IMG/VR virus record: IMGVR_UViG_3300008339_000605
Coordinates: 1 to 21,278 of that record
Length of the DNA stretch: 21,278 bases
Origin: a virus
Direction: 5' to 3' (one strand)
Both the position numbers and the translations under genes were made by a program. Position 1 is the stretch's first letter. Each line of letters opens with the position of its first letter. The notes beneath the pieces were generated by a model. It made no database searches. It worked only from the letters and a program-made list of their open reading frames with translations, and was not told the origin of the DNA. Positions 10,545 through 21,278 of the stretch are shown here, one piece after another.

Positions 10545-11287
10545 TACATCGCTCCGATCATCTGTGCGAGCTGGTCAGCAAAACTGAGATACTGCATAGC
10601 GTCAGCTTCACCCGCATACTGTTGCTGGATTTCACCCTCAGTGAACACATCTGCGCCAGGGGCCTGGGTCACGATAGATCCCATAGCCCGCTGTCCAGCA
10701 ATCTGCTGCTGCTGATATGCGGCAACCAATTCATCTGCTTCGGTGTCCATAAGTTTGCGCCCAAGGATCTGCTGGCTGGTTTGTTGAACCACAGCCTTGA
10801 TGTCAGATGGGTTAGATACCGTGTACTGCCGGCGACTGTAACCTGACTGTTGAACCACGTCAGGAAGTTTCGTGCCAAGTTGGGTGAACGCTTCAAACCA
10901 TTCAACGCCCTGTGTGTTGGCGTACCACAGTAGGTCTGCAAATACGGAACGGTCTTTGTCTGAAAGCCCGTTGCCTGGGGTTGAGGATCCGTAGAAACCT
11001 TTTTGGTACAGGACATTCAGGACTGTGGTGCGGTTGGTGTCCGACAGGTTCGCAAGGAAAACTCCAGCATCTTTGGTGATGTCATAGAACGGTAACTGTT
11101 CCCCTGCTGCGGTGGTGATACCCGAATATGAAGGCGCGTAGGTTCCGCTAACCATCCGTGAAGGTGGGGTGTAGCCCGATGGGACACCCGTGTACGGTGT
11201 TGAACCGTAGTCGGTTGCCATTGGGATCGGGTTTGCAGAGGTGTAATCCCCAGGCTGATAATCCTCACCGGTATTAACATTAGACAT
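10544..11287 (-). CDS. Predicted virion protein (247 aa), unknown function
   Basis: ATG 11287-11285 overlaps the end of the 1550-aa gene by 8 nt. The first 85 residues are Tyr/Ser/Pro/Gly-rich and probably disordered (DYGSTPYTGVPSGYTPPSRM). From about residue 86 it is a helical domain: FLANLSDTNRTTVLNVLYQK, GFYG, then LSDKDRSVFADLLWYANTQG, QQTSQQILGRKLMDTEADEL, ending DAMQYLSFADQLAQMIGAM. The L..LYQKGFYG...LSD.DR..FA.LL.~AN phrase recurs in my memory of phage internal structural proteins, without an agreed function. Flanking overlaps tie its expression to the 1550- and 672-aa proteins, so the three may be parts of one assembly. Confidence 0.75.
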   Translation of the reverse strand: MSNVNTGEDYQPGDYTSANPIPMATDYGSTPYTGVPSGYTPPSRMVSGTYAPSYSGITTAAGEQLPFYDITKDAGVFLANLSDTNRTTVLNVLYQKGFYGSSTPGNGLSDKDRSVFADLLWYANTQGVEWFEAFTQLGTKLPDVVQQSGYSRRQYTVSNPSDIKAVVQQTSQQILGRKLMDTEADELVAAYQQQQIAGQRAMGSIVTQAPGADVFTEGEIQQQYAGEADAMQYLSFADQLAQMIGAM

Positions 11288-14200
11288 CGGTTTCTACCTC
11301 TTGTGCGAACAGGCCGTCATAGATACGACTAAAGTTTGGCACTATTTTACTCAGTTGCGTGGCATACGAAACGAGATAGTCGCGTAGATCTGCGGTTGAT
11401 TTTGATGTGATGCCAACCAAGCCTCGGCGTTGTGCTTCTCCGATTACTTGGTCACGGACATCAAGGTAGTTGCGGATTGCTCCAGCGATGTCGGTGTCGG
11501 CTACGGCAGAGTCATCTACAGCGGTGCGGAGTTCTGCGATGGTGTTAGCAAACTTGCCGGTATCAAAGCTTGCTGCGGCACCGAAACCTGGGAAGCGTTC
11601 TGCTAGAACGGCACGATATTCACGCAGGTATTGACGCTGGGCTTCGTTGGGGTAGGAACCAACTTGGCGTTGTACTGAACGGTAATAGGATGTGGCAACA
11701 ATCTTTTCAGCTAGGGCTTTTGATTCTTCGGCTGTGATGCGTTCAATTCGACCAGTTATCAGGTTGCGTTGGTACACCTGGAAGTCAAAGTCGCTTCCGG
11801 TGTCAGCAAAGTAGCCACCAACATTCTTGAATCGTTCAAGGAAACGGGAGTTGTCGCCTTGGCGCTCCCATTCACCGAAGGCTGCCGATGATTGGATGCC
11901 ACCGTAAACGGATCGGGATTTGCCAGCCATGTAGATGAAAGCGTCTTCCCCGAAAGCGTCTAGGAACCTTGGTACAGCGGTGTCGTAGTCTTCTTGGCGG
12001 AAGTCATAGAAGGCTTTGGATAGCTCTTTGACATAGACATCGCCTTCTTCAGTGGGGATAGTGAACTGTGGCACGGGTCGTGATGGACCAGTGAACTGTC
12101 CCAAGCCTCGAAGAATGGTGAGAGTTTTGGCTTTACCTATTGAATCTTGGTATAGCTGTTCCATTTCGTCAGGGTTTGTTGTGTCGTATTCCCCTGTTGC
12201 AATCAACGCTTGGTAGGTTTCCATGAACGTGTTGCCAAAAACGGTGTTTGAATCGGGATCATCTGTTAGTGCAGAGCGCAGTTTCTTAAACCATGCTGGT
12301 TCAAACGAACTACCTTTGAAATCTGTTTCGCCGTAGGGCAACAGGAATGACCTGATTTCGTCATATTTGGGGGAGTCGGGCAGGATTTTGGATGCCGCTA
12401 CCTGAGCAAACGGTCCTAAACCTGGGCGGTAATCAAGGCCGATTGCGAAGCCTTTAACTGGTGCTGATAGGCCGACATCCAAACCTGCTCCACCACCGAT
12501 AGAGGTGAGCGCACGGGTAAGGTAGTGGGACATTGGGTAACTGAACATCCATTCGCCTGTTACGGGATCGGTGTAGAAGAAACCTCGACCATCACCATCG
12601 GGGTCGGCTTCTCGCCCACCTTCAACAACAAGCTGGGTTTTGCGAATGTTTTTAAGGTTAGGCAACGGTCCAAAACCGGTGTTTGTTACATAGTGTCCTG
12701 CGAAACGCCTGAAGAACTCAACCTGTGCCTGGGCAAATGGCATGACAACTCGAGCAATGTCGGTGATGTTGTTACGTTCTGATGCGTCATAAAGCATGGA
12801 TTTAAGGTCGTCTAGCGCGTTACCTTTGGCATAGAAGTCTGCATCTTTCAGGTTGAGCGACCCTGATAGTTTTTGTGGGTTTGCTTGTAGGTCAACGATC
12901 TTGTCCCACGTTTCTTTTGAACCTACCCAACGCCATTCATCGGTGCCTGTGCGTTGCGCTGCGGCACGAACATTCTGTATAAGCAGGTTCACGGAGCTTT
13001 CATCCAAAGATGGGGCTAGGTCACCAATCCATGAGTAGTAACGCTGACGGAAAGCCGGTGACCGTTCAAGCCATTTGGCTGGTTTGGTGTGCAAGAAACC
13101 AAAGATTGTGTCAGTTGTTTGATCCCAGCGTTGCAGAATTGTTGGGTCGGTGGCTGTTTCTTTGGCTCGCACTTCCCATGTGAGTTCTTGTGGGGATTTT
13201 GGGTCAAGACGAATAGCGTCATCTTGCAGGAAGTTGTCAAGCGTGTTGGATGCTTCACGGTTTTGGAAAGCAAACGGTGAAACAACGGCTTCGTTAGTTG
13301 CTGGATCTATTGAGACAACTCGAGCTTGACGTGTGCCACGACCTGATGCGGTTGGGATTTCTACAACATCGCCAGCCCGTGCGCCACGACCCAGCACCTT
13401 TGCGTCAATGATTTCATCAGGCATACGCCCACCAGCAACAATGTCTAAAAGTTGACGTGACCTTTGGTTTGTTGCCCTGACAAGTCGGGCTTCCACTGAG
13501 TCCAACAGAAGTGCCAGGTTGTTTTGATCTCTCAGATCTATCGCTTGACTGTGATATGAGCCTGTGGCTGGGTCAAAGATTGGGCGGCCATTATCGTGGT
13601 AGTCCACCTGATTGCGAAGCCATGTGCGACCTTCTTCAATGTTTTCAGCAATCTCGTTGTCAATCTGTGCTTGTGTTTTGCCATCTGCTAGTTGGCGTTG
13701 AACATAACCCTGATTTACGACACCGTTGAGTTCGTCAATGATTTCTTCACGTGTTGCGCCTTGGGCGTATCTACGGGCAACAAAGTCTGCGTTCAACAAA
13801 CCAAGTTCGTCACCGTGCGCCTGTGCCATGACTGGCATACCATCAGAGTTTTTAACTGTTCTCCATTGCCCAATACGCTTTCCTCTACGGAACATATCAG
13901 AAGGGTCAGAATAGTGGGATCGCAAAGCGTTGCCGGTTGCTGTTTGGAACTCTCGCATCGTGGCAAGACCCGATTCTTCATCAAAGGTTTCACCAAATAC
14001 GTCACCAACTCCGCGCCTTCTTTTGGTTTTGGTTGACCACATCAGATGTTGCAGTGGGTGACGGAAAACGCTCGTTGCATCTTTGCCTGATAATGCCAAC
14101 GACACTTGACCTTCAAGCAGATTTCTCAACCCGTAGCCACCAGTCATTAGAATCAAACTGCGCCAAACCTTGTCTTGAATAAACTGCAAAGTTGCAAACG

Positions 14201-15932
14201 GCATCCTAAGTTGACCAGCTTGTGCCAAATTATCTAGGTTACTGTCTGAAACGGTAAAGATTTTGTTCAATGTTTTAAGACCGCTAAGGCGGCGCACCTG
14301 ATCTGCGTTGGGCAACAGGAGCATATTTTGTGCCATTTCGCTAGCAAGTTGAGGGCCAGCGGCAATTCCGTTTTGGATCTGATCGTCTAGACCAGCCAAA
14401 CCCATGTACATCCCGTTGTCAGTTACATTGCCAGCATCGTCAACATTAAAACTGGTGGTTTTGCGAATGAAGTCATCGTGAGCGTCAAATACTGCATCCA
14501 CAACTTCTTGTTTGTATCCACGATCCACTAATGATTGTTTCATGGTGTCAACAAGTTTTTCTCGTAATGCCTTTTGTGCCGTTGGTGTTGCTGCATCGCC
14601 CACCAATGCGTCAGTTGCCTCATCAAGAATTGACCTGCGCGTGTCATCGTCAACAAGGGTTTGTTTCATCCAGCGGTCAATTTCGTTTAGGGTTTTGCGT
14701 GTGCCAACCGGATCGGTGGGAGAAAGGTCGACATATTGACCTGGGCGCACATTGAGTAGACGGGTGTAGCGTTCTCCAAACAGGTTGTTAAGGGTGTCCA
14801 CTACTCGAATACGGGTTTGGAAACGGGTTGCTCCACGCATCTTTGTAGAGGACAAAGCTGTTTCTTTACCCAAAGTGTTGATGAGAACATCTTGTACTTC
14901 GTCTGCTGTTTTAGCGTTGCGTAACTGTTGAGCAGTTTCAACATAAAGGTTGTCGCCGTAAAGCGCACGAACATCATCCATCGTGTTTGCTTCAACGGTG
15001 CGGTCAATTAACCGTCTTGCTTCTGCCGTTCCAAGCCAACGGTTTGCATCTTCAACATTTACCTGTGATCCACTGATGCCGTGGTTAAGTTGTTGGAGCC
15101 GAAAATCCTCAGCAGACATATTGGATGGCAGGATTCGTGCGCCTTCACGACCCCAAAAACGGATAATGTCATCTGCTTTTGTAACAGCCGCGCCAGCTGT
15201 GCCAGCTTCCACTGCGCCACGAACCTGACCTTTGACAAGCTTTGAACCTGGAATGGTGGGTACTGCAATAGCAACACCAGCATCAACAATGCCTGACATC
15301 AGGTTGAAGGCTTTAGAGTCAGGTGTTGCTACAAGGCTTGCTAGTCCACGGCCAAATGTCCAAGCGTGACCACCGATTTCGCCACGGTATTCACGGGCGC
15401 GTTTCCCTTGATTCTGTAAAGCTTCGCCACCAAGGAAGAAACCGTTGCCTGACTTCTCATCTTCCATAATCATCGTTCCTAACGATGTGGAAGCAAACCA
15501 TCCTTTAACACCTTCACGGTTATCAAAAAATTGTGAACCTGCACCTTGCACCATTTCCAAAGGAAAGTTAAGTGCGCTCATAGTCCAACGGGATGCTGTT
15601 TTAACTTTGTCTTTAACCCAACCGAAAATGCCTTTGCTTTTCTTTTCTTCCTTCTCAGGATCGGCTGTGTTGTTATACAGGTCAGGGTTTTTCTCAACCT
15701 CTAAAGCAATCTGTTTAATGGCTTGTTCAAGTTGTTGGTCGTTGTAGTTGGCTTTCGCCATTGACAAAGCAACACCAGCTGGAAGCCAAGGTGCTTGTGA
15801 ATAGATCTGTCCAACACGGGTAGCCAAGTCGGGGGTTGCCGTTTGCCGATACTGGTTAATGCGATCAGTTTCGGCTTGTAAACCTTTAAGGAATGTGTCT
15901 TCTTCTTCAATTGACAGGCGATAGCCGAACAT
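11280..15932 (-). CDS. Giant predicted virion protein (1550 aa), candidate internal/ejection protein
   Basis: ATG 15932-15930 overlaps the previous stop in TAATG and the frame is uninterrupted for 4.65 kb. The protein is mostly helical and hydrophilic. It has a basic amphipathic stretch near residues 100-130 (GIFGWVKDKVKTASRWTMSA), a Gly/Ala-rich weakly hydrophobic stretch around 208-250 (IVDAGVAIAVPTIPGSKLV), and later segments such as LILMTGGYGLRNLLEGQVSL, VVMPFAQAQVEFFRRFAGHY and LTSIGGGAGLDVGLSAPVKG. I see no lysozyme, protease or polymerase motif. Podoviruses carry very large internal proteins that are ejected with DNA. The size, the position after the portal gene and the membrane-interacting-looking segments fit that role. 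A tail protein is the alternative. No family was recognised, so the function is inference. Confidence 0.8.
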   Translation of the reverse strand: MFGYRLSIEEEDTFLKGLQAETDRINQYRQTATPDLATRVGQIYSQAPWLPAGVALSMAKANYNDQQLEQAIKQIALEVEKNPDLYNNTADPEKEEKKSKGIFGWVKDKVKTASRWTMSALNFPLEMVQGAGSQFFDNREGVKGWFASTSLGTMIMEDEKSGNGFFLGGEALQNQGKRAREYRGEIGGHAWTFGRGLASLVATPDSKAFNLMSGIVDAGVAIAVPTIPGSKLVKGQVRGAVEAGTAGAAVTKADDIIRFWGREGARILPSNMSAEDFRLQQLNHGISGSQVNVEDANRWLGTAEARRLIDRTVEANTMDDVRALYGDNLYVETAQQLRNAKTADEVQDVLINTLGKETALSSTKMRGATRFQTRIRVVDTLNNLFGERYTRLLNVRPGQYVDLSPTDPVGTRKTLNEIDRWMKQTLVDDDTRRSILDEATDALVGDAATPTAQKALREKLVDTMKQSLVDRGYKQEVVDAVFDAHDDFIRKTTSFNVDDAGNVTDNGMYMGLAGLDDQIQNGIAAGPQLASEMAQNMLLLPNADQVRRLSGLKTLNKIFTVSDSNLDNLAQAGQLRMPFATLQFIQDKVWRSLILMTGGYGLRNLLEGQVSLALSGKDATSVFRHPLQHLMWSTKTKRRRGVGDVFGETFDEESGLATMREFQTATGNALRSHYSDPSDMFRRGKRIGQWRTVKNSDGMPVMAQAHGDELGLLNADFVARRYAQGATREEIIDELNGVVNQGYVQRQLADGKTQAQIDNEIAENIEEGRTWLRNQVDYHDNGRPIFDPATGSYHSQAIDLRDQNNLALLLDSVEARLVRATNQRSRQLLDIVAGGRMPDEIIDAKVLGRGARAGDVVEIPTASGRGTRQARVVSIDPATNEAVVSPFAFQNREASNTLDNFLQDDAIRLDPKSPQELTWEVRAKETATDPTILQRWDQTTDTIFGFLHTKPAKWLERSPAFRQRYYSWIGDLAPSLDESSVNLLIQNVRAAAQRTGTDEWRWVGSKETWDKIVDLQANPQKLSGSLNLKDADFYAKGNALDDLKSMLYDASERNNITDIARVVMPFAQAQVEFFRRFAGHYVTNTGFGPLPNLKNIRKTQLVVEGGREADPDGDGRGFFYTDPVTGEWMFSYPMSHYLTRALTSIGGGAGLDVGLSAPVKGFAIGLDYRPGLGPFAQVAASKILPDSPKYDEIRSFLLPYGETDFKGSSFEPAWFKKLRSALTDDPDSNTVFGNTFMETYQALIATGEYDTTNPDEMEQLYQDSIGKAKTLTILRGLGQFTGPSRPVPQFTIPTEEGDVYVKELSKAFYDFRQEDYDTAVPRFLDAFGEDAFIYMAGKSRSVYGGIQSSAAFGEWERQGDNSRFLERFKNVGGYFADTGSDFDFQVYQRNLITGRIERITAEESKALAEKIVATSYYRSVQRQVGSYPNEAQRQYLREYRAVLAERFPGFGAAASFDTGKFANTIAELRTAVDDSAVADTDIAGAIRNYLDVRDQVIGEAQRRGLVGITSKSTADLRDYLVSYATQLSKIVPNFSRIYDGLFAQEVETDV

Positions 15933-16307: not shown

Positions 16308-18125
16308 TCATCCCAACCTTCCTGCTAGTGAAAGAACGGAACCTGGTGTCCCTGGCGGTGCGGCAGCACCGGCTTGTGGACCACCACGAAGTCGAGCAAC
16401 AAGATCACCTAACGATGGTGCGCCAGCCGGCGGTCCTGCCGGTTGTTCAGCTCCCATGCCTGGCATTGCTAGCCCTGGCATCGTTTCAGGTGATCCTGCT
16501 GGAGCTTGTGCCGCTTGGCGTTCTTGTGCGCGTTGCTGTGCGGCTTCGATTGCTTCGGCAAGATTCATCTTGTCGGTTGCAACCATGCGAGCAATGTAGG
16601 CAAGGTCGGCTGGCTGGTATGGCCCGTTGGGGTCAGCTGCTTGTGACTGAAGGCTTGACAGGAGTGCTGCTTCTACGCCTTCTGCGATGATGCGGTCATG
16701 CTCCAACTCAGGGTCGGTGATTAGTGGATCGGCTTCACGGGCTGATTCTTTAGACATCAAACCTGTGCCTAGACGCTGACCCAAGCCAACAATGAGAGCG
16801 TTCACATCTGAACCCGATGACGGGTAGGTGACATAGTGGAAGTCGGTTTCCCAAATCTTGTTCGGGGTGTAATCCACTTTGGCGTTTTGCTGTTTGCCGG
16901 CAATAAAGAACGATTTTGGTTTGTCTCCCCAGTACGCCTTTTCAATGGCAATAGCAATACGGTCTTCTTCAAAGATGGATGCTTCAAAAATCTTTTGTGC
17001 TTCCTGCACTTTGAAGTCAACGGTGGCTGCAAGTACGGTTTCGCCACGGCGACCAGTACGAATGTTGGATGCGGATTCTCCACCGAACTCGGCTGGGATG
17101 CCACCCTCTAAGCGTTCTTGTCGTTCAATGCGATCCATTGCTACATCGGTTTTGTAACCAGGGTTGGTTTGTAGCTGTTGGATGTCGCCACCTTTAACAA
17201 CACCAAGCTGACCGGTTTTACCGTCTGCGGTTTGGATGATCTCAGGGTTTTCACCTGGGCGAGCAATCAGATATTCGTCAGGGAAAATGCCACGCTCAAT
17301 AGCGATTTCGGTCAATGCTTGTAACCGTGCGCGGGTGTAAAACATTCCCACCATGTTGTCAAACTGGCCTCGAATCTCGTCAAGGGTGATGCGCTTAGGT
17401 ACAACAGCTAGTGGCATCCCTGTGCGGTTCGGGATTCTTTCTAGTTCTACAGCTTCCATCCAACCGTTGTCGGACATGGTTCCGTCTTCTGCACCCATAG
17501 CAACCAAAACAAGTTCGTTTCCGCAAACATATTCAAGGATACGGAAGCGGGAATCGTGGGTGATTTTGCCCATGTTCAGGTTTTGTACCTGACCGCCATA
17601 GTTTTTGAGAAGCCATTGAGCATTTTTCACATAGGTGAAGATGACGTTTTCGGGAATGATGTCGTCAGGGTCTTCTGTTACGGCAGGGTAGGTATCTAGC
17701 GGGTTGCGTACTTGCCATGTTGGTACAAGTTTGCCAAAGTCAGGTTTGAGAACTACAGGACTTGTGCCGTAAGCCAACAGAAGGCGGGAACGGCGGCGCA
17801 TTTTGAGGTCAAAACGGTTGTGATCCCACATGGATTCCATAGCGCGTTTGCGAAGGCGAGCTGTTTTGGCTGACTGTTCCACCCCATCTTTTAACGGTGG
17901 GAAGTATGGTGCCGGCAAAGTTGATGCGACACGCATAGCCATCTGATCTATGCCTTGGGTGGCAAGGTTGGCGACTGATGCTCGAGCATTGCGGTCAAGT
18001 TCGTTCAGCGGAACGATAAGTTCCCCACGGGTCATTTCACGTACTTCACGCATCCGTTTCAACACGGGACCCATTGCCTCGCGGCGGGCTGTGAACATTG
18101 AAACTATTTCTTCTACAGACCTCAT
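16308..18125 (-). CDS. Portal protein (605 aa)
   Basis: The frame could open at TTG 18137, but ATG 18125-18123 is preferred because GGAG lies six bases upstream of it and overlaps the TTG. From that ATG the protein begins MRSVEEIVSMFTARREAMG. Helical N-terminal residues are followed by FDLKMRRRSRLLLAYGTSPV, WQVRNPLDTYPAV, NVIFTYVKNAQWLL, FDNMVGMFYTRARLQALTEI, GGIPAEFGGESASNIRTGRR and FEASIFEEDRIAIAIEKAYW. This resembles large portal proteins of podovirus-type phages: an early Arg-rich helix, a lipid-like LAYGTSPVVLKP strand, a long stem helix with MFYTRARLQALTEIA, then a wing and C-terminal crown. The last 70 residues are Ala/Pro/Gly/Met-rich and disordered. It forms the ring through which DNA is packaged and leaves. 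The gene lies directly after TerL. Confidence 0.85.
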   Translation of the reverse strand: MRSVEEIVSMFTARREAMGPVLKRMREVREMTRGELIVPLNELDRNARASVANLATQGIDQMAMRVASTLPAPYFPPLKDGVEQSAKTARLRKRAMESMWDHNRFDLKMRRRSRLLLAYGTSPVVLKPDFGKLVPTWQVRNPLDTYPAVTEDPDDIIPENVIFTYVKNAQWLLKNYGGQVQNLNMGKITHDSRFRILEYVCGNELVLVAMGAEDGTMSDNGWMEAVELERIPNRTGMPLAVVPKRITLDEIRGQFDNMVGMFYTRARLQALTEIAIERGIFPDEYLIARPGENPEIIQTADGKTGQLGVVKGGDIQQLQTNPGYKTDVAMDRIERQERLEGGIPAEFGGESASNIRTGRRGETVLAATVDFKVQEAQKIFEASIFEEDRIAIAIEKAYWGDKPKSFFIAGKQQNAKVDYTPNKIWETDFHYVTYPSSGSDVNALIVGLGQRLGTGLMSKESAREADPLITDPELEHDRIIAEGVEAALLSSLQSQAADPNGPYQPADLAYIARMVATDKMNLAEAIEAAQQRAQERQAAQAPAGSPETMPGLAMPGMGAEQPAGPPAGAPSLGDLVARLRGGPQAGAAAPPGTPGSVLSLAGRLG

Positions 18126-18182
18126 CCAGTTCTCCAACGACAGTTAGGCAAAGTATAGGTCATTTGCGGTTGTGGAAAACGG

Positions 18183-20168
18183 TTATATCCAAGATGGCCG
18201 CCACATTCGTGGTGGTGTCTTCGCAGCAGTGAGTTGTGGTGCGTGTAATTCTGCAAACCAATGTGCCATCACAAGGTCAGTTCCACGTTTCTTATCTCGA
18301 GTCCATGTAGCCATCTCATCTATCAACGCAAGTGTTTTCCAGTTCTCCACCATTGTCGGTAAACGAATCGCACCGGTACGCCACAGTGGGGGAAGTAAAG
18401 CTTCTACACCTAAAGTTTCGTCAAGTTTGTTTCGGCTGGTGGTGTGAGCAATCACGTTGACACGGTTGATGGCTTGCCATCGGCGCACAAACTCATGTGC
18501 CAAAAGGAATCTTTGTGCGGCGTTCACTTCCACAATCCAATGGGTTATCGGATGCCCCATCTGTACTGATCTGTGTTGCCAATCATCCATGATTCCTGAA
18601 TACTCACCGGTTCCGACAGAGAAACCTAAAAGTTCTTCAGCTGTGAGACGGGTTCGTTCTAGATCTATCAGGTAACGAAGGTTGGTGTCAGGCTGATACA
18701 GCCACCATTGGACTGCCCAAAACTCAGATGGAGAAGGATCTACAGAGGCAATCGAAATAATTGGTTGACGTAACCCTGGTGGTATGTATCCTGGGCGGCG
18801 ATCCCTGTCTATGCACCCTGGGTACATGATGCCATCGGGTCCGACCCCGCCGGTTGCCCATACCCGTTCAATTAGATACATCCCAGCTTCTATGTCTTCT
18901 TGTTGATAGACGATTTTGAACTTGGTTGGGTTGGAATGTTTGATGAAAGATAGGTCTTTCCACGACAGTCGGTGTGGATCTAGTAGCGGTCCTTCGGGCC
19001 AGGCGGGTGCATCCTTTCGGCGGGACTGTGGGCCTGTATCCAAATCTTCGTACCAAGCTTTATAAACCAGGTGATGATACTTTTTCTTTTTAACCGGTTC
19101 TTTTGCTTCCGTAAGTTTGTCCAAAAGGGTGACATCTTGCCCATCGTAGTCGTCATCAAAGTCATCGTAGGTTTCTTTGGACAGACAGTGGGCGTACAGG
19201 TCGGTTGGTCCTAGCCGTTGACCGACCACAGCTAGTAGTCCACCTGGGTCTACACGGGCTTCCGCTACAGAATCCCAGCGTTCTATCAGTTTGTCTCGAG
19301 CAGCAGATTCTTTAGCGTTCTCGGGTCCGGCAACGTCATCAAAAAGACATAGATCGGCACGGTGACCGATGAACTCGGACTCTATACCGTAAGCAGAAAC
19401 GGTTGGTTCTTTGTTGTCTAGACCGCCGACACCTAACTGTTCAACCACAAACTCTTCTGCTCGCCACAATCCACCTGATGCTGACGGTTTGAACCTGCCA
19501 TAGTCATGTGCGAGACACGCTTCAGCGTTCAAAGCTAACCCTTTGCGTACCAGTTCAGGGTCAGGTTCCAACGGAAATGGCCGTTCAAGGGTTTCACGGA
19601 TACGGCGACTGTACTGTTTTGCCATAGATTGAGAAATTGACCCAATCATCACACGGATCGCCCTGTTTCGGACTATCACCCACACGGCAACATCATGCCA
19701 AAGGGTTGATTTGCCGGCACCTGGAGCAACATTGACGACACAAAACTCTTTCTCAGGGGATTCAAGCCATTTGACGATCTGTAACGCAGCATCAACTTGC
19801 CACGGTGACGGGACACGACCCAAATATCTGCGCCGAAAGTAGTCAAAGTCTTCCATTCCACGTTTCGCTTCATCAGAAAGGTCACCGTATTGACGTACCG
19901 ATGGCAGATCTATTGCTTCGGTGATGGCCTGTTTGTAGGCATCAGCGTCTCGACCACCAGTAACCTTAGATTTACGGATGCCAAGATCAGCGGCTTGGAT
20001 CTCAGCCCCAACCTTTTTGGCTTTCGCATCCCACTTCTGTCCAGTGTTCACATGGATGCCAACCATCGCAGAAGCTTCTTTGATGGTTAACCCGCTGGAG
20101 CGTAACGCAAAAAACTTGGCACGGATTTCTGCTGGCAGTTTGCGTCTGCCCGAAAACTCATTGCCCAT
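18183..20168 (-). CDS. Terminase large subunit (TerL) with N-terminal helix-turn-helix (661 aa)
   Basis: ATG 20168-20166; the preceding gene ends 11 nt inside. Residues 14-48 form a clear helix-turn-helix (IRAKFFALRSSGLTIKEASA then MVGIHVNTGQKW), a DNA-binding element normally found in the small subunit. The ATPase has Walker A APGAGKST at 148-155 and Walker B LCLFDD at 273-278. The nuclease part has SIASVDPSPSEFW with D477, then HWIVEVNAAQ with E547, then GTDLVMAHWFAE with D631, consistent with the RNase H-like acidic triad. TerL cuts concatemeric DNA and drives it into the procapsid through the portal encoded next. The 661-aa length is long for the family because of the HTH and spacer region up to about residue 100. 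Confidence 0.93.
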   Translation of the reverse strand: MGNEFSGRRKLPAEIRAKFFALRSSGLTIKEASAMVGIHVNTGQKWDAKAKKVGAEIQAADLGIRKSKVTGGRDADAYKQAITEAIDLPSVRQYGDLSDEAKRGMEDFDYFRRRYLGRVPSPWQVDAALQIVKWLESPEKEFCVVNVAPGAGKSTLWHDVAVWVIVRNRAIRVMIGSISQSMAKQYSRRIRETLERPFPLEPDPELVRKGLALNAEACLAHDYGRFKPSASGGLWRAEEFVVEQLGVGGLDNKEPTVSAYGIESEFIGHRADLCLFDDVAGPENAKESAARDKLIERWDSVAEARVDPGGLLAVVGQRLGPTDLYAHCLSKETYDDFDDDYDGQDVTLLDKLTEAKEPVKKKKYHHLVYKAWYEDLDTGPQSRRKDAPAWPEGPLLDPHRLSWKDLSFIKHSNPTKFKIVYQQEDIEAGMYLIERVWATGGVGPDGIMYPGCIDRDRRPGYIPPGLRQPIISIASVDPSPSEFWAVQWWLYQPDTNLRYLIDLERTRLTAEELLGFSVGTGEYSGIMDDWQHRSVQMGHPITHWIVEVNAAQRFLLAHEFVRRWQAINRVNVIAHTTSRNKLDETLGVEALLPPLWRTGAIRLPTMVENWKTLALIDEMATWTRDKKRGTDLVMAHWFAELHAPQLTAAKTPPRMWRPSWI

Positions 20169-20439
20169 AGTTTGCTAGTTTCTCCAACCGTTGAACCTCT
20201 GATTCTAGTTCACGAACCTCCAACCGAAGAGACTCAATCTCATCCGCAGCTTGACGACAAGCTTTAAAAATAGAGTTGGCACCAAAGTTCTGTCGAACAT
20301 CAGCAATATCCCGCAACGTCAAGACAACATCCTGCGAACTCGCACGAAGGTACGCTGCTTTCATCTCATCCCAATCCACTTGATCCTCTTTCAAATCCCA
20401 AAAATTAGCACCCGAATACTTCAACACCCTAGGCAACAT
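20158..20439 (-). CDS. Small coiled-coil protein upstream of TerL (93 aa), possible TerS or packaging accessory
   Basis: ATG 20439-20437 with GGGAG six bases upstream; the stop overlaps the TerL start by 11 nt. The N-terminus is MLPRVLKYSGANFWDLKEDQ, followed by an acidic helix. Residues 62-90 form a heptad-patterned coiled coil (ADEIESLRLEVRELESEVQR). No helix-turn-helix is visible, and the HTH lies in the next protein instead. The gene is the first after the promoter and in the place where a small terminase is expected, and coiled coils are used for TerS oligomerisation. A TerS that has given its DNA-binding part to TerL is one reading. An unrelated small protein is equally possible. Confidence 0.7.
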   Translation of the reverse strand: MLPRVLKYSGANFWDLKEDQVDWDEMKAAYLRASSQDVVLTLRDIADVRQNFGANSIFKACRQAADEIESLRLEVRELESEVQRLEKLANYGQ

Positions 20440-20464
20440 AAAAAACTCCCTTCAGTACCGTTGA

Positions 20465-20493
20465 ACAATACATCCGATAGTGTACGATGTCAA
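20465..20493 (-). promoter_or_regulatory. Sigma70-like promoter for the structural operon
   Basis: On the minus strand a perfect -35 TTGACA (20493-20488) is followed by a 17-bp spacer and a -10 TATTGT (20470-20465). The -35 and the spacing are ideal and the -10 matches four of six bases. Transcription would begin around 20458, about 20 bases before the first start codon, with GGGAG in between. It would let the host RNA polymerase read the packaging and structural genes. Confidence 0.7.
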
Positions 20494-20500
20494 TGAGGTT

Positions 20501-20533
20501 GAGCCACAGAGTCAACCCTTCCTCTGTTGGCTC
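20501..20533. promoter_or_regulatory. Eleven-bp dyad (hairpin) next to the operon promoter
   Basis: GAGCCACAGAG (20501-20511) can pair with CTCTG-T-TGGCTC (20522-20533), giving 11 bp with one bulged T and a 10-base loop. It ends only 8 bp from the -35 box. There is no T-tract on the minus strand, so an operator or activator site is more likely than a terminator for that strand. On the plus strand it is followed by CCTCACCTTTC, a poor terminator tail. Confidence 0.45.
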
Positions 20534-21278
20534 CCTCACCTTTCTAACAACCGAACGATCCGTACAAACGGTGGAGCAAGCCCTAGACCCTGGACACAAC
20601 GATGAGTCAGCCAGGAACGGGAAGATGGCCGGAAACGGGGACCGACCCCAACATCATCAACAACGCCACGCAGCTTAGCCACAGCTATTAAAAATGTGAC
20701 ACGTACAGGGGTAACAAAGAGTTAAAGAAACTTGGGTGTCGGCTAAAAACATTTGGTCACGGCCACCCTCGAACAACAAGTTCGTAAAGCGTGGGGGGGA
20801 ACCAAACACCGCACCATCACCCAGTTACTACCGCGCCCCTACACGGGGCTTGGTGCCGGCAAGAACCCTGCAACCCAGCGACATACTCAACACCCAAACA
20901 GACACAAATGAATAAACATACAAAACAACGCATAACCACACAACCACCCAACGAGACCAACCAACCACAAAACCACAGAGAGTGACCAACCCGACACCAA
21001 CATCAACACCCAGCTTCAAGGCAGCAAGGTGCGACAGCACCGCGCTAGCAACAAAACCATCTACAGAGAAAAAGGGTAATACGTATATACTGGGGGGGGT
21101 GGCTCGGCACATGGGCGGGTTGCGTACAGGTGTTCGGTCGGCCAGGCGTACAGGTGTTCGGTTACCGGCAGGTAGGTTACTTGACGGTAACTAGCTCACG
21201 GGGGAGAGGGCAGGGGGGTCACCTCAATTCTTCCGAAGGGTACCCGCCCCGCATTGGTGGATATCTTCGGATCACGCC
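20534..21278. other. Gene-poor region upstream of the packaging genes, with no supported gene
   Basis: No open frame here has a ribosome site and a convincing composition. Positions 20881-21000 contain, by count, only 7 T and 10 G in 120 bases on the plus strand, so the minus strand is G/T-rich. A C-rich stretch at 20957-20974 makes the minus strand read GG-TTTTGT-GG-TT-GG-TT-GG, a two-layer quadruplex pattern. There are G7 (20793-20799) and G8 (21092-21099) runs, small hairpins at 20835-20849 (GCCCC/GGGGC) and 21028-21041 (GGTGC/GCACC), and a 17-bp direct repeat near 21.13 kb. Being next to the terminase genes, it may hold the packaging start site or another control region. Confidence 0.5.
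21122..21162. repeat. 17-bp perfect direct repeat, two copies, 24-bp period
   Basis: GCGTACAGGTGTTCGGT occurs at 21122-21138 and again at 21146-21162, separated by 7 bp. It is followed by GGTTAC at 21160-21165, a second GGTTAC and a GTTAC/GTAAC inverted pair around 21176-21191. Closely spaced direct repeats near a terminase gene could be binding sites for packaging or regulatory proteins. Confidence 0.7.

Follow-up and report, generated by a model that had tools for sequence, protein, structure and literature searches.

In the standard picture of terminase function, a separate small-terminase (TerS) ring picks the viral genome and hands the DNA to the large-terminase (TerL) motor. The locus analysed here raises the question of how this work is divided when TerL itself begins with a helix-turn-helix (HTH). 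The locus lies in a 21-kb fragment of an uncultivated phage genome; the whole stretch of DNA that was analysed (21 278 nt) is referred to below as the window, and its features are listed in Table 1. An initial annotation of this DNA had proposed that DNA recognition for packaging has moved to the large subunit, and that the 93-aa protein encoded ahead of terL supplies only oligomerization. The reading favoured here, to which we assign a probability of about 0.68, is that a fused protein consisting of a TerS-type HTH, a linker and TerL reads the packaging site itself, the 93-aa gene being accessory cargo.

Table 1. Features of the terL locus, in window coordinates
Feature	Position	Strand	Basis or remark
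TerL (large terminase), 661 aa, ATG start	18183-20168	minus	phrog_38, E=8e-56; N-terminal helix-turn-helix
HTH domain, TerL residues 13-52	20013-20132	minus	HTH_23 at residues 14-46, phrog_4102 at residues 9-52, predicted helices
Linker, TerL residues 53-88	19905-20012	minus	remainder of helix 3, then low-confidence, length-variable segment
T7-type ATPase and nuclease core, TerL residues 91-652	18213-19898	minus	phrog_38 match
Portal protein gene, next after terL	16308-18137	minus	phrog_104, E=1.1e-19
93-aa gene, lineage-specific, probable cargo	20158-20439	minus	overlaps terL by 11 nt; one relative
Leader hairpin ahead of the 93-aa gene	20492-20540	minus	predicted fold; unrelated to the palindromic leader of relatives
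Block with no recognized gene, candidate cis-acting region	20441-20949	minus	blastn: 75 % identical to L002 over 520 columns

The window phage is an uncultivated T7-like podophage, probably with an actinobacterial host. A WhiB-like regulator gene was found in a relative (G004; L089:18221-18604), with homologues in 11 of the 19 relatives whose genomes were retrieved, and this gene points to actinobacterial hosts. Genome contigs scanned with two peptide patterns contained no relative, and hence yielded no prophage host.

The greater part of TerL is of the T7 type. An alignment of 26 rows (A1) was obtained from the 68 TerLs that reached a length of 645 aa (L013 excluded), of which a similarity filter kept 26; L049 was then dropped because its start was uncertain, and the window sequence was added. 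All 26 members matched phrog_38, and a search of solved structures with the family profile retrieved T7 DNA maturase B (4bij; E=9.7e-8). Invariant in A1 were P149, G150, G152, K153, S154 and T155, which we take to be the P-loop, and D477, E547 and D631, presumably the catalytic acidic residues of the nuclease. The window TerL scored 66.2 bits (E=2.4e-18) against the equivalog NF033889, which is below the cut-off of 150 bits, and is thus related to that equivalog without belonging to it. The linker ahead of this core carried insertions and deletions among relatives and was predicted with low confidence (pLDDT block means 55-58 over residues 61-85).

At the N-terminus, the matches of the window sequence were marginal when taken alone: HTH_23 of Pfam scored 19.9 bits (E=6.4e-4), under its curated cut-off of 24.6, and the small-terminase family phrog_4102 was matched at E=1e-3 over profile positions 13-56 of 166. 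The presence of an HTH was settled by the other members of the family, which matched independent libraries. At E≤0.1, phrog_4102 matched 23 of the 26 aligned TerLs (best 5.6e-5), HTH_28 matched 15 (best 1.2e-7), HTH_Tnp_1 matched 14 and phrog_4044 matched seven; the transposase family phrog_151 matched eight. Generic and transposase HTH families fit the TerL N-terminus as well as the TerS families do, and HTH_28 fits it better. The resemblance to a small-subunit domain noted in the initial annotation is reflected in the phrog_4102 matches. Of the hallmarks of a TerS, an HTH domain was found at the TerL N-terminus, with weak per-sequence E-values, whereas a separate gene and an oligomerization domain of its own were not: the HTH part alone is present, carried on TerL. 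Searches with other material were less informative. Nothing in the phage collection matched the N-terminal 140 residues of TerL, even at E=10, and a sequence search of the PDB with the HTH profile returned designed repeat proteins (as many sub-threshold pieces) and weak matches to the lac repressor. The IS630-type transposase family NF033545 matched residues 16-78 alone (E=0.041, 13.3 bits, cut-off 100), the remainder of the protein being TerL. Identity as an IS630-type transposase or recombinase was rejected, as the HTH is followed by the TerL core and not by a transposase catalytic domain.

AlphaFold2 modelling of residues 1-85 (21 rows) predicted helices at 13-24, 29-36 and 40-69, with pLDDT block means of 91-95 over residues 11-50. 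The model of the full-length protein was poor overall (mean pLDDT 52.4) but began in the same way, with helices at 13-24, 29-36 and 40-65. Taken together, the HTH_23, phrog_4102 and family matches and the predicted helices agree with the HTH that had been placed at residues 14-48 ahead of the ATPase-nuclease, and indicate that residues 13-52 of TerL form a helix-turn-helix. Foldseek searches with the predicted HTH gave best E-values of 0.24 (PDB) and 0.029 (BFVD), and the neighbours were generic HTHs. The TerS of G20c (6ejq_C) superimposed with Z 5.6 and an rmsd of 1.8 over 48 residues, at rank 20 among generic HTHs. The HTHs of phrog_4102, phrog_4044 and the G20c TerS are thus comparable with that of the window in fold and weakly similar in sequence; because generic HTHs rank first in both Foldseek and VIA, structure comparison does not single out TerS.

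A TerL relative was encoded on 104 IMG/VR stretches, the best 80 of which shared 65-90 % identity with the window in the best segment. Seven of these 80 loci lacked the terL start and were left out; in all of the remaining 73 the HTH profile matched the TerL frame. As that profile (21 rows: 20 TerL N-termini of the window's family and a relic from L013, described below) was built from the window's own family, this result shows conservation and not independent detection. Sequence comparison thus indicates that the fused HTH is a family trait, not a peculiarity of this phage, and that it characterizes an entire clan of TerLs. The ratio pN/pS, computed over 32 close pairs (those with core pN under 0.13), was 0.126 in the core, 0.14 in the HTH and 0.25 in the linker; these values are rough, since synonymous sites were near saturation (pS 0.72-0.76). 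These figures bear on the suggestion that a gene fusion left the HTH behind as a passive relic with little function. The N-terminal part does vary more, with a mean column identity of 52 % (alignment A2) compared with 79 % (A1), but an HTH that is kept in 73 of 73 loci and whose pN/pS is near that of the core makes such a relic very improbable.

The gene ahead of terL had been described as a 93-aa gene encoding no HTH, and this was confirmed: no HTH or terminase family of Pfam or PHROGs was matched up to E=1, and a leucine-rich C-terminal stretch was seen. The Pfam matches that were obtained all lay under curated cut-offs (Tricorn_C1 0.0046, the helix-hairpin-helix family HHH_8 0.017, ZapB 0.018 and others), and the weak PHROGs matches were all to families of no assigned function. 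A single close relative of the protein was found in IMG/VR, on L002, the contig nearest to the window, where it occupies the same place with 59 % identity; a homologue was present in one of the 19 retrieved relatives. Among the loci listed, other relatives carry an N6/N4 DNA methylase, endonuclease VII, other genes or none in this place, and several of these genes overlap terL by 1-17 nt. A cargo hotspot between the leader hairpin and terL is exemplified by L005:986-2098, L010:3761-5002, L036:1770-2186 and L145:2072-2986. Since the 93-aa gene was found only in the window and L002 and the place is otherwise filled variously, it is probably accessory cargo between the leader hairpin and terL rather than an oligomerization partner, and a role as a general TerS partner was rejected on the same distribution. 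This leaves little room for a split small terminase in which the TerL HTH reads the DNA and a 93-aa coiled-coil protein oligomerizes, as had been proposed initially. In favour of such an arrangement, the gene adjoins terL, the 11-nt overlap is kept in L002, and the C-terminus is leucine-rich, the L002 homologue matching HALZ at E=0.01, under the cut-off; the replacement of the gene elsewhere by methylase, endonuclease VII or other genes, several of them also overlapping terL, or by none, nevertheless makes the arrangement hardly credible.

If the HTH of TerL reads the packaging site, a separate TerS gene would not be expected. Such a gene was sought in 22 long records, comprising 21 relatives of 36-56 kb (the completeness of most of which is not stated) and the Streptomyces phage Manuel. 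The HTH profile matched TerL alone in 20 of the 21 relatives, matched TerL and the relic in the genome of L013, and matched nothing in Manuel. Matches to phrog_4102 were located on TerL N-termini, that of Manuel included, and on the L013 relic, and nowhere else; phrog_4044 matched nine of the 22 records and was likewise confined to TerL N-termini or the relic. The T7-type TerS families phrog_1351 and phrog_891 were found in none of the 22 records and in three of 14 control genomes each. In the same controls, at E≤1, phrog_4102 rang in nine genomes and phrog_4044 in 10, so that a weak match alone means little and it is the location of the matches that counts. Apart from the one relic, none of the four TerS families (phrog_4102, phrog_4044, phrog_1351 and phrog_891) was found as a gene of its own in the 22 long records. 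Six of the 19 retrieved contigs have end overlaps of 87-127 nt, suggesting complete genomes (the overlap of G002 is understated, as its sequence is 40 bases short). The contig ends were rejected as evidence for genome termini, as the overlaps look like assembly overlaps. Twenty proteins of G004, 13 of which are present in all six end-overlap genomes, were scanned at E≤0.05 without a match to a TerS family.

The exception in L013 was considered as a surviving TerS and rejected, as it reads as a recombination relic of a foreign terL start. L013 and L011 are 97 % identical in the leader and 94 % identical in the terL start, with about 1055 bases between the two in L013 compared with six in L011. 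Within the extra bases (L013:4141-5210) lie a 272-aa gene and a 168-nt stretch whose identity to the terL start of L063, L064 and L066 is 82-83 %. This stretch corresponds to about 56 codons from the beginning of a foreign terL, and as a result the resident terL is preceded by a 71-aa HTH gene that stands by itself. A search with this 71-aa relic gave two records of one Planktothrix phage (E=0.4). With these families, a separate HTH-bearing TerS gene, which would have contradicted the proposed shift, was found nowhere in the long records besides this relic. The conserved, TerS-type HTH and the distribution of the four families support, as an inference, the proposal that DNA recognition has passed to TerL.

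Comparable TerLs were found in the Streptomyces phages of Beephvirinae/cluster BF (RosePharie and Manuel) and in ct2KA10, all being of 621-660 aa with an N-terminal extension that matches TerS families. RosePharie TerL matched phrog_4102 at E=0.0048 (3.5e-4 with the N-terminus alone) and ct2KA10 TerL matched phrog_4044 at E=0.018 (0.0026 with the N-terminus alone); the Manuel TerL N-terminus matches phrog_4102, and no TerS is annotated in that genome. A search with ct2KA10 TerL at E≤1e-20 retrieved 31 phage records, 29 of Streptomyces phages and two of ct2KA10, each covering at least 80 %; the Streptomyces rows aligned from residue 16 or 23 and were annotated as terminase, terminase large subunit or hypothetical protein. 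The Streptomyces TerLs are about 25 % identical to that of the window over residues 139-646, and RosePharie and Manuel differ in carrying an endolysin gene between terL and the portal gene.

An alignment of 18 hand-picked TerLs was used to relate fused proteins to those whose TerS is split off (T7, Laces98, KBS-P-1A, RHEph01, Bf7, Ptah and GP100). The residues ahead of the common core numbered 62-90 in the 11 fused TerLs and 8-19 in the seven split ones. One branch (support 99/98) parted fused from split TerLs, with GP100 on a long branch; the Streptomyces and ct2KA10 proteins lay on the same side as the window. T7 gp19 (Autographiviridae) shares the ATPase-nuclease core with the window TerL (phrog_38; 4bij), but has no N-terminal extension, and its TerS, gp18, is encoded by a separate gene. 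A gene of phrog_1351 or phrog_891 was located upstream of terL in six of the seven split phages (T7, Laces98, KBS-P-1A, RHEph01, Bf7 and Ptah), that of KBS-P-1A being three genes away from terL; in the seventh, GP100, the upstream 166-aa gene belonged to phrog_8035, of no assigned function. The HTH profile of the window's family gave no match to the seven split TerLs up to E=10 and reached the Streptomyces and ct2KA10 TerLs at E 0.015-0.17. The tree is compatible with a single origin of the fusion, which it does not prove; given the weakness of the HTH similarity between the two groups, two separate fusions are also possible.

Upstream of terL, a palindromic leader (GYTGGYGGG...CCCRCCARC, 57-73 nt) was detected by pattern search in at least 35 of the 106 distinct loci listed, a lower bound, as a covariance model finds more (e.g. 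L018, L179, L195 and L054). In 18 loci the leader lies 87-1434 nt from terL, and in 16 of these the two are separated by one or more ORFs with a length of at least 50 aa. The covariance model found one strong copy (56-86 bits) in eight of the 19 retrieved genomes, each upstream of terL. Six of the 16 predicted pairs showed double changes that preserve pairing (a raw count, with no control set). As seen at L025:4893-4965, L011:4896-4964 and L142:2391-2456, the leader lies a short distance ahead of terL or of the cargo genes that precede it. A scan of nine sources at the Rfam gathering thresholds returned nothing. The palindromic leader could be an RNA leader, a packaging site or a recombination site. 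In the hairpin of the window itself, a CAGAG/CTCTG stem is replaced by CAGGG/CCCTG in L002, one double change by which pairing is kept.

The leader also bears on the main competitor of the fused reader. On that account a genuine HTH would act as a transcriptional regulator, for instance of terL through the leader, or would anchor the motor to DNA non-specifically, whilst an unrecognized small core protein serves as TerS. In 17 of the 106 listed loci the conserved palindrome, a plausible regulatory site, precedes terL by 16-38 nt, and the generic HTH families match the TerL N-terminus as well as the TerS families do. Several small core genes of no assigned function are present; those with no recognized family include an 81-aa gene (L090:2011-2256) and a 173-aa gene (L089:18505-19026), either of which could encode a TerS with no recognizable HTH. 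TerS proteins form a diverse group, and that of the T4-like phage 44RR is reported to have no canonical HTH (PMC9611059). On the other side, the HTH of most members matches TerS families and is part of the motor protein itself, and six of the seven split relatives carry recognizable TerS genes, so that we consider a regulatory or non-specific role rather unlikely.

For the favoured reading, in which TerL brings its own HTH to the packaging site, the Streptomyces relatives lend support. Manuel has exact terminal repeats of 276 bp, with terL as its first gene, and terminal repeats of 253 bp are given for five cluster BF phages in PMC9753666. Exact terminal repeats in relatives with a fused TerL mean that a defined site must be chosen and cut; the HTH would do the choosing. 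In the mechanism envisaged, the HTHs of a TerL oligomer would bind a site near terL on replicated DNA; each motor subunit would bring its own reader, so that a TerS ring would be unneeded for site choice. The flexible linker may give the HTH enough reach to contact its DNA site during docking of the motor on the portal. Cutting by the TerL nuclease would then produce fixed ends, in line with the direct terminal repeats that the Streptomyces relatives possess. A wider proposal is tentative and, as a whole, doubtful: a clan of actinobacterial T7-like phages may have a one-protein terminase with no TerS ring and one reader per subunit, whose target would be the single-copy palindromic hairpin ahead of terL, the spacer up to terL doubling as an insertion point for cargo genes.

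A TerS-TerL fusion, or an HTH on TerL, was not described in the accessible portions of the literature searched, which was mostly non-subscription and included PMC6563490, PMC6471424, PMC9611059, PMC9753666, PMC11536984, PMC6854486 and PMC3556154. The last of these presents a different case, phiCbK, in which the N-terminal region of TerL is unrelated to other TerLs and a separate TerS is predicted. A built-in reader may explain the absence of an annotated TerS in Manuel. If the favoured reading is correct, the ratio would be fixed at one HTH per TerL and the hand-over step removed; one protein may then both find the genome and pack it, which bears on the old question of how terminases choose and hand over the genome. 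A single purified protein would then suffice to study recognition, cutting and packaging, and the cultivable Streptomyces phages whose terminal repeats are known could supply it.

Two further features of the window were recorded. A 17-nt sequence upstream of the 93-aa gene is directly repeated without change, the two copies lying 24 nt apart (21122-21162); no copy of the 17-mer, with up to two mismatches, was found in the 19 retrieved relatives or in Manuel. A 1550-aa protein encoded at 11280-15932 had no PHROG match, and relatives of it were present in 17 of the 19 retrieved genomes, with 34-36 % identity in the two that were compared.
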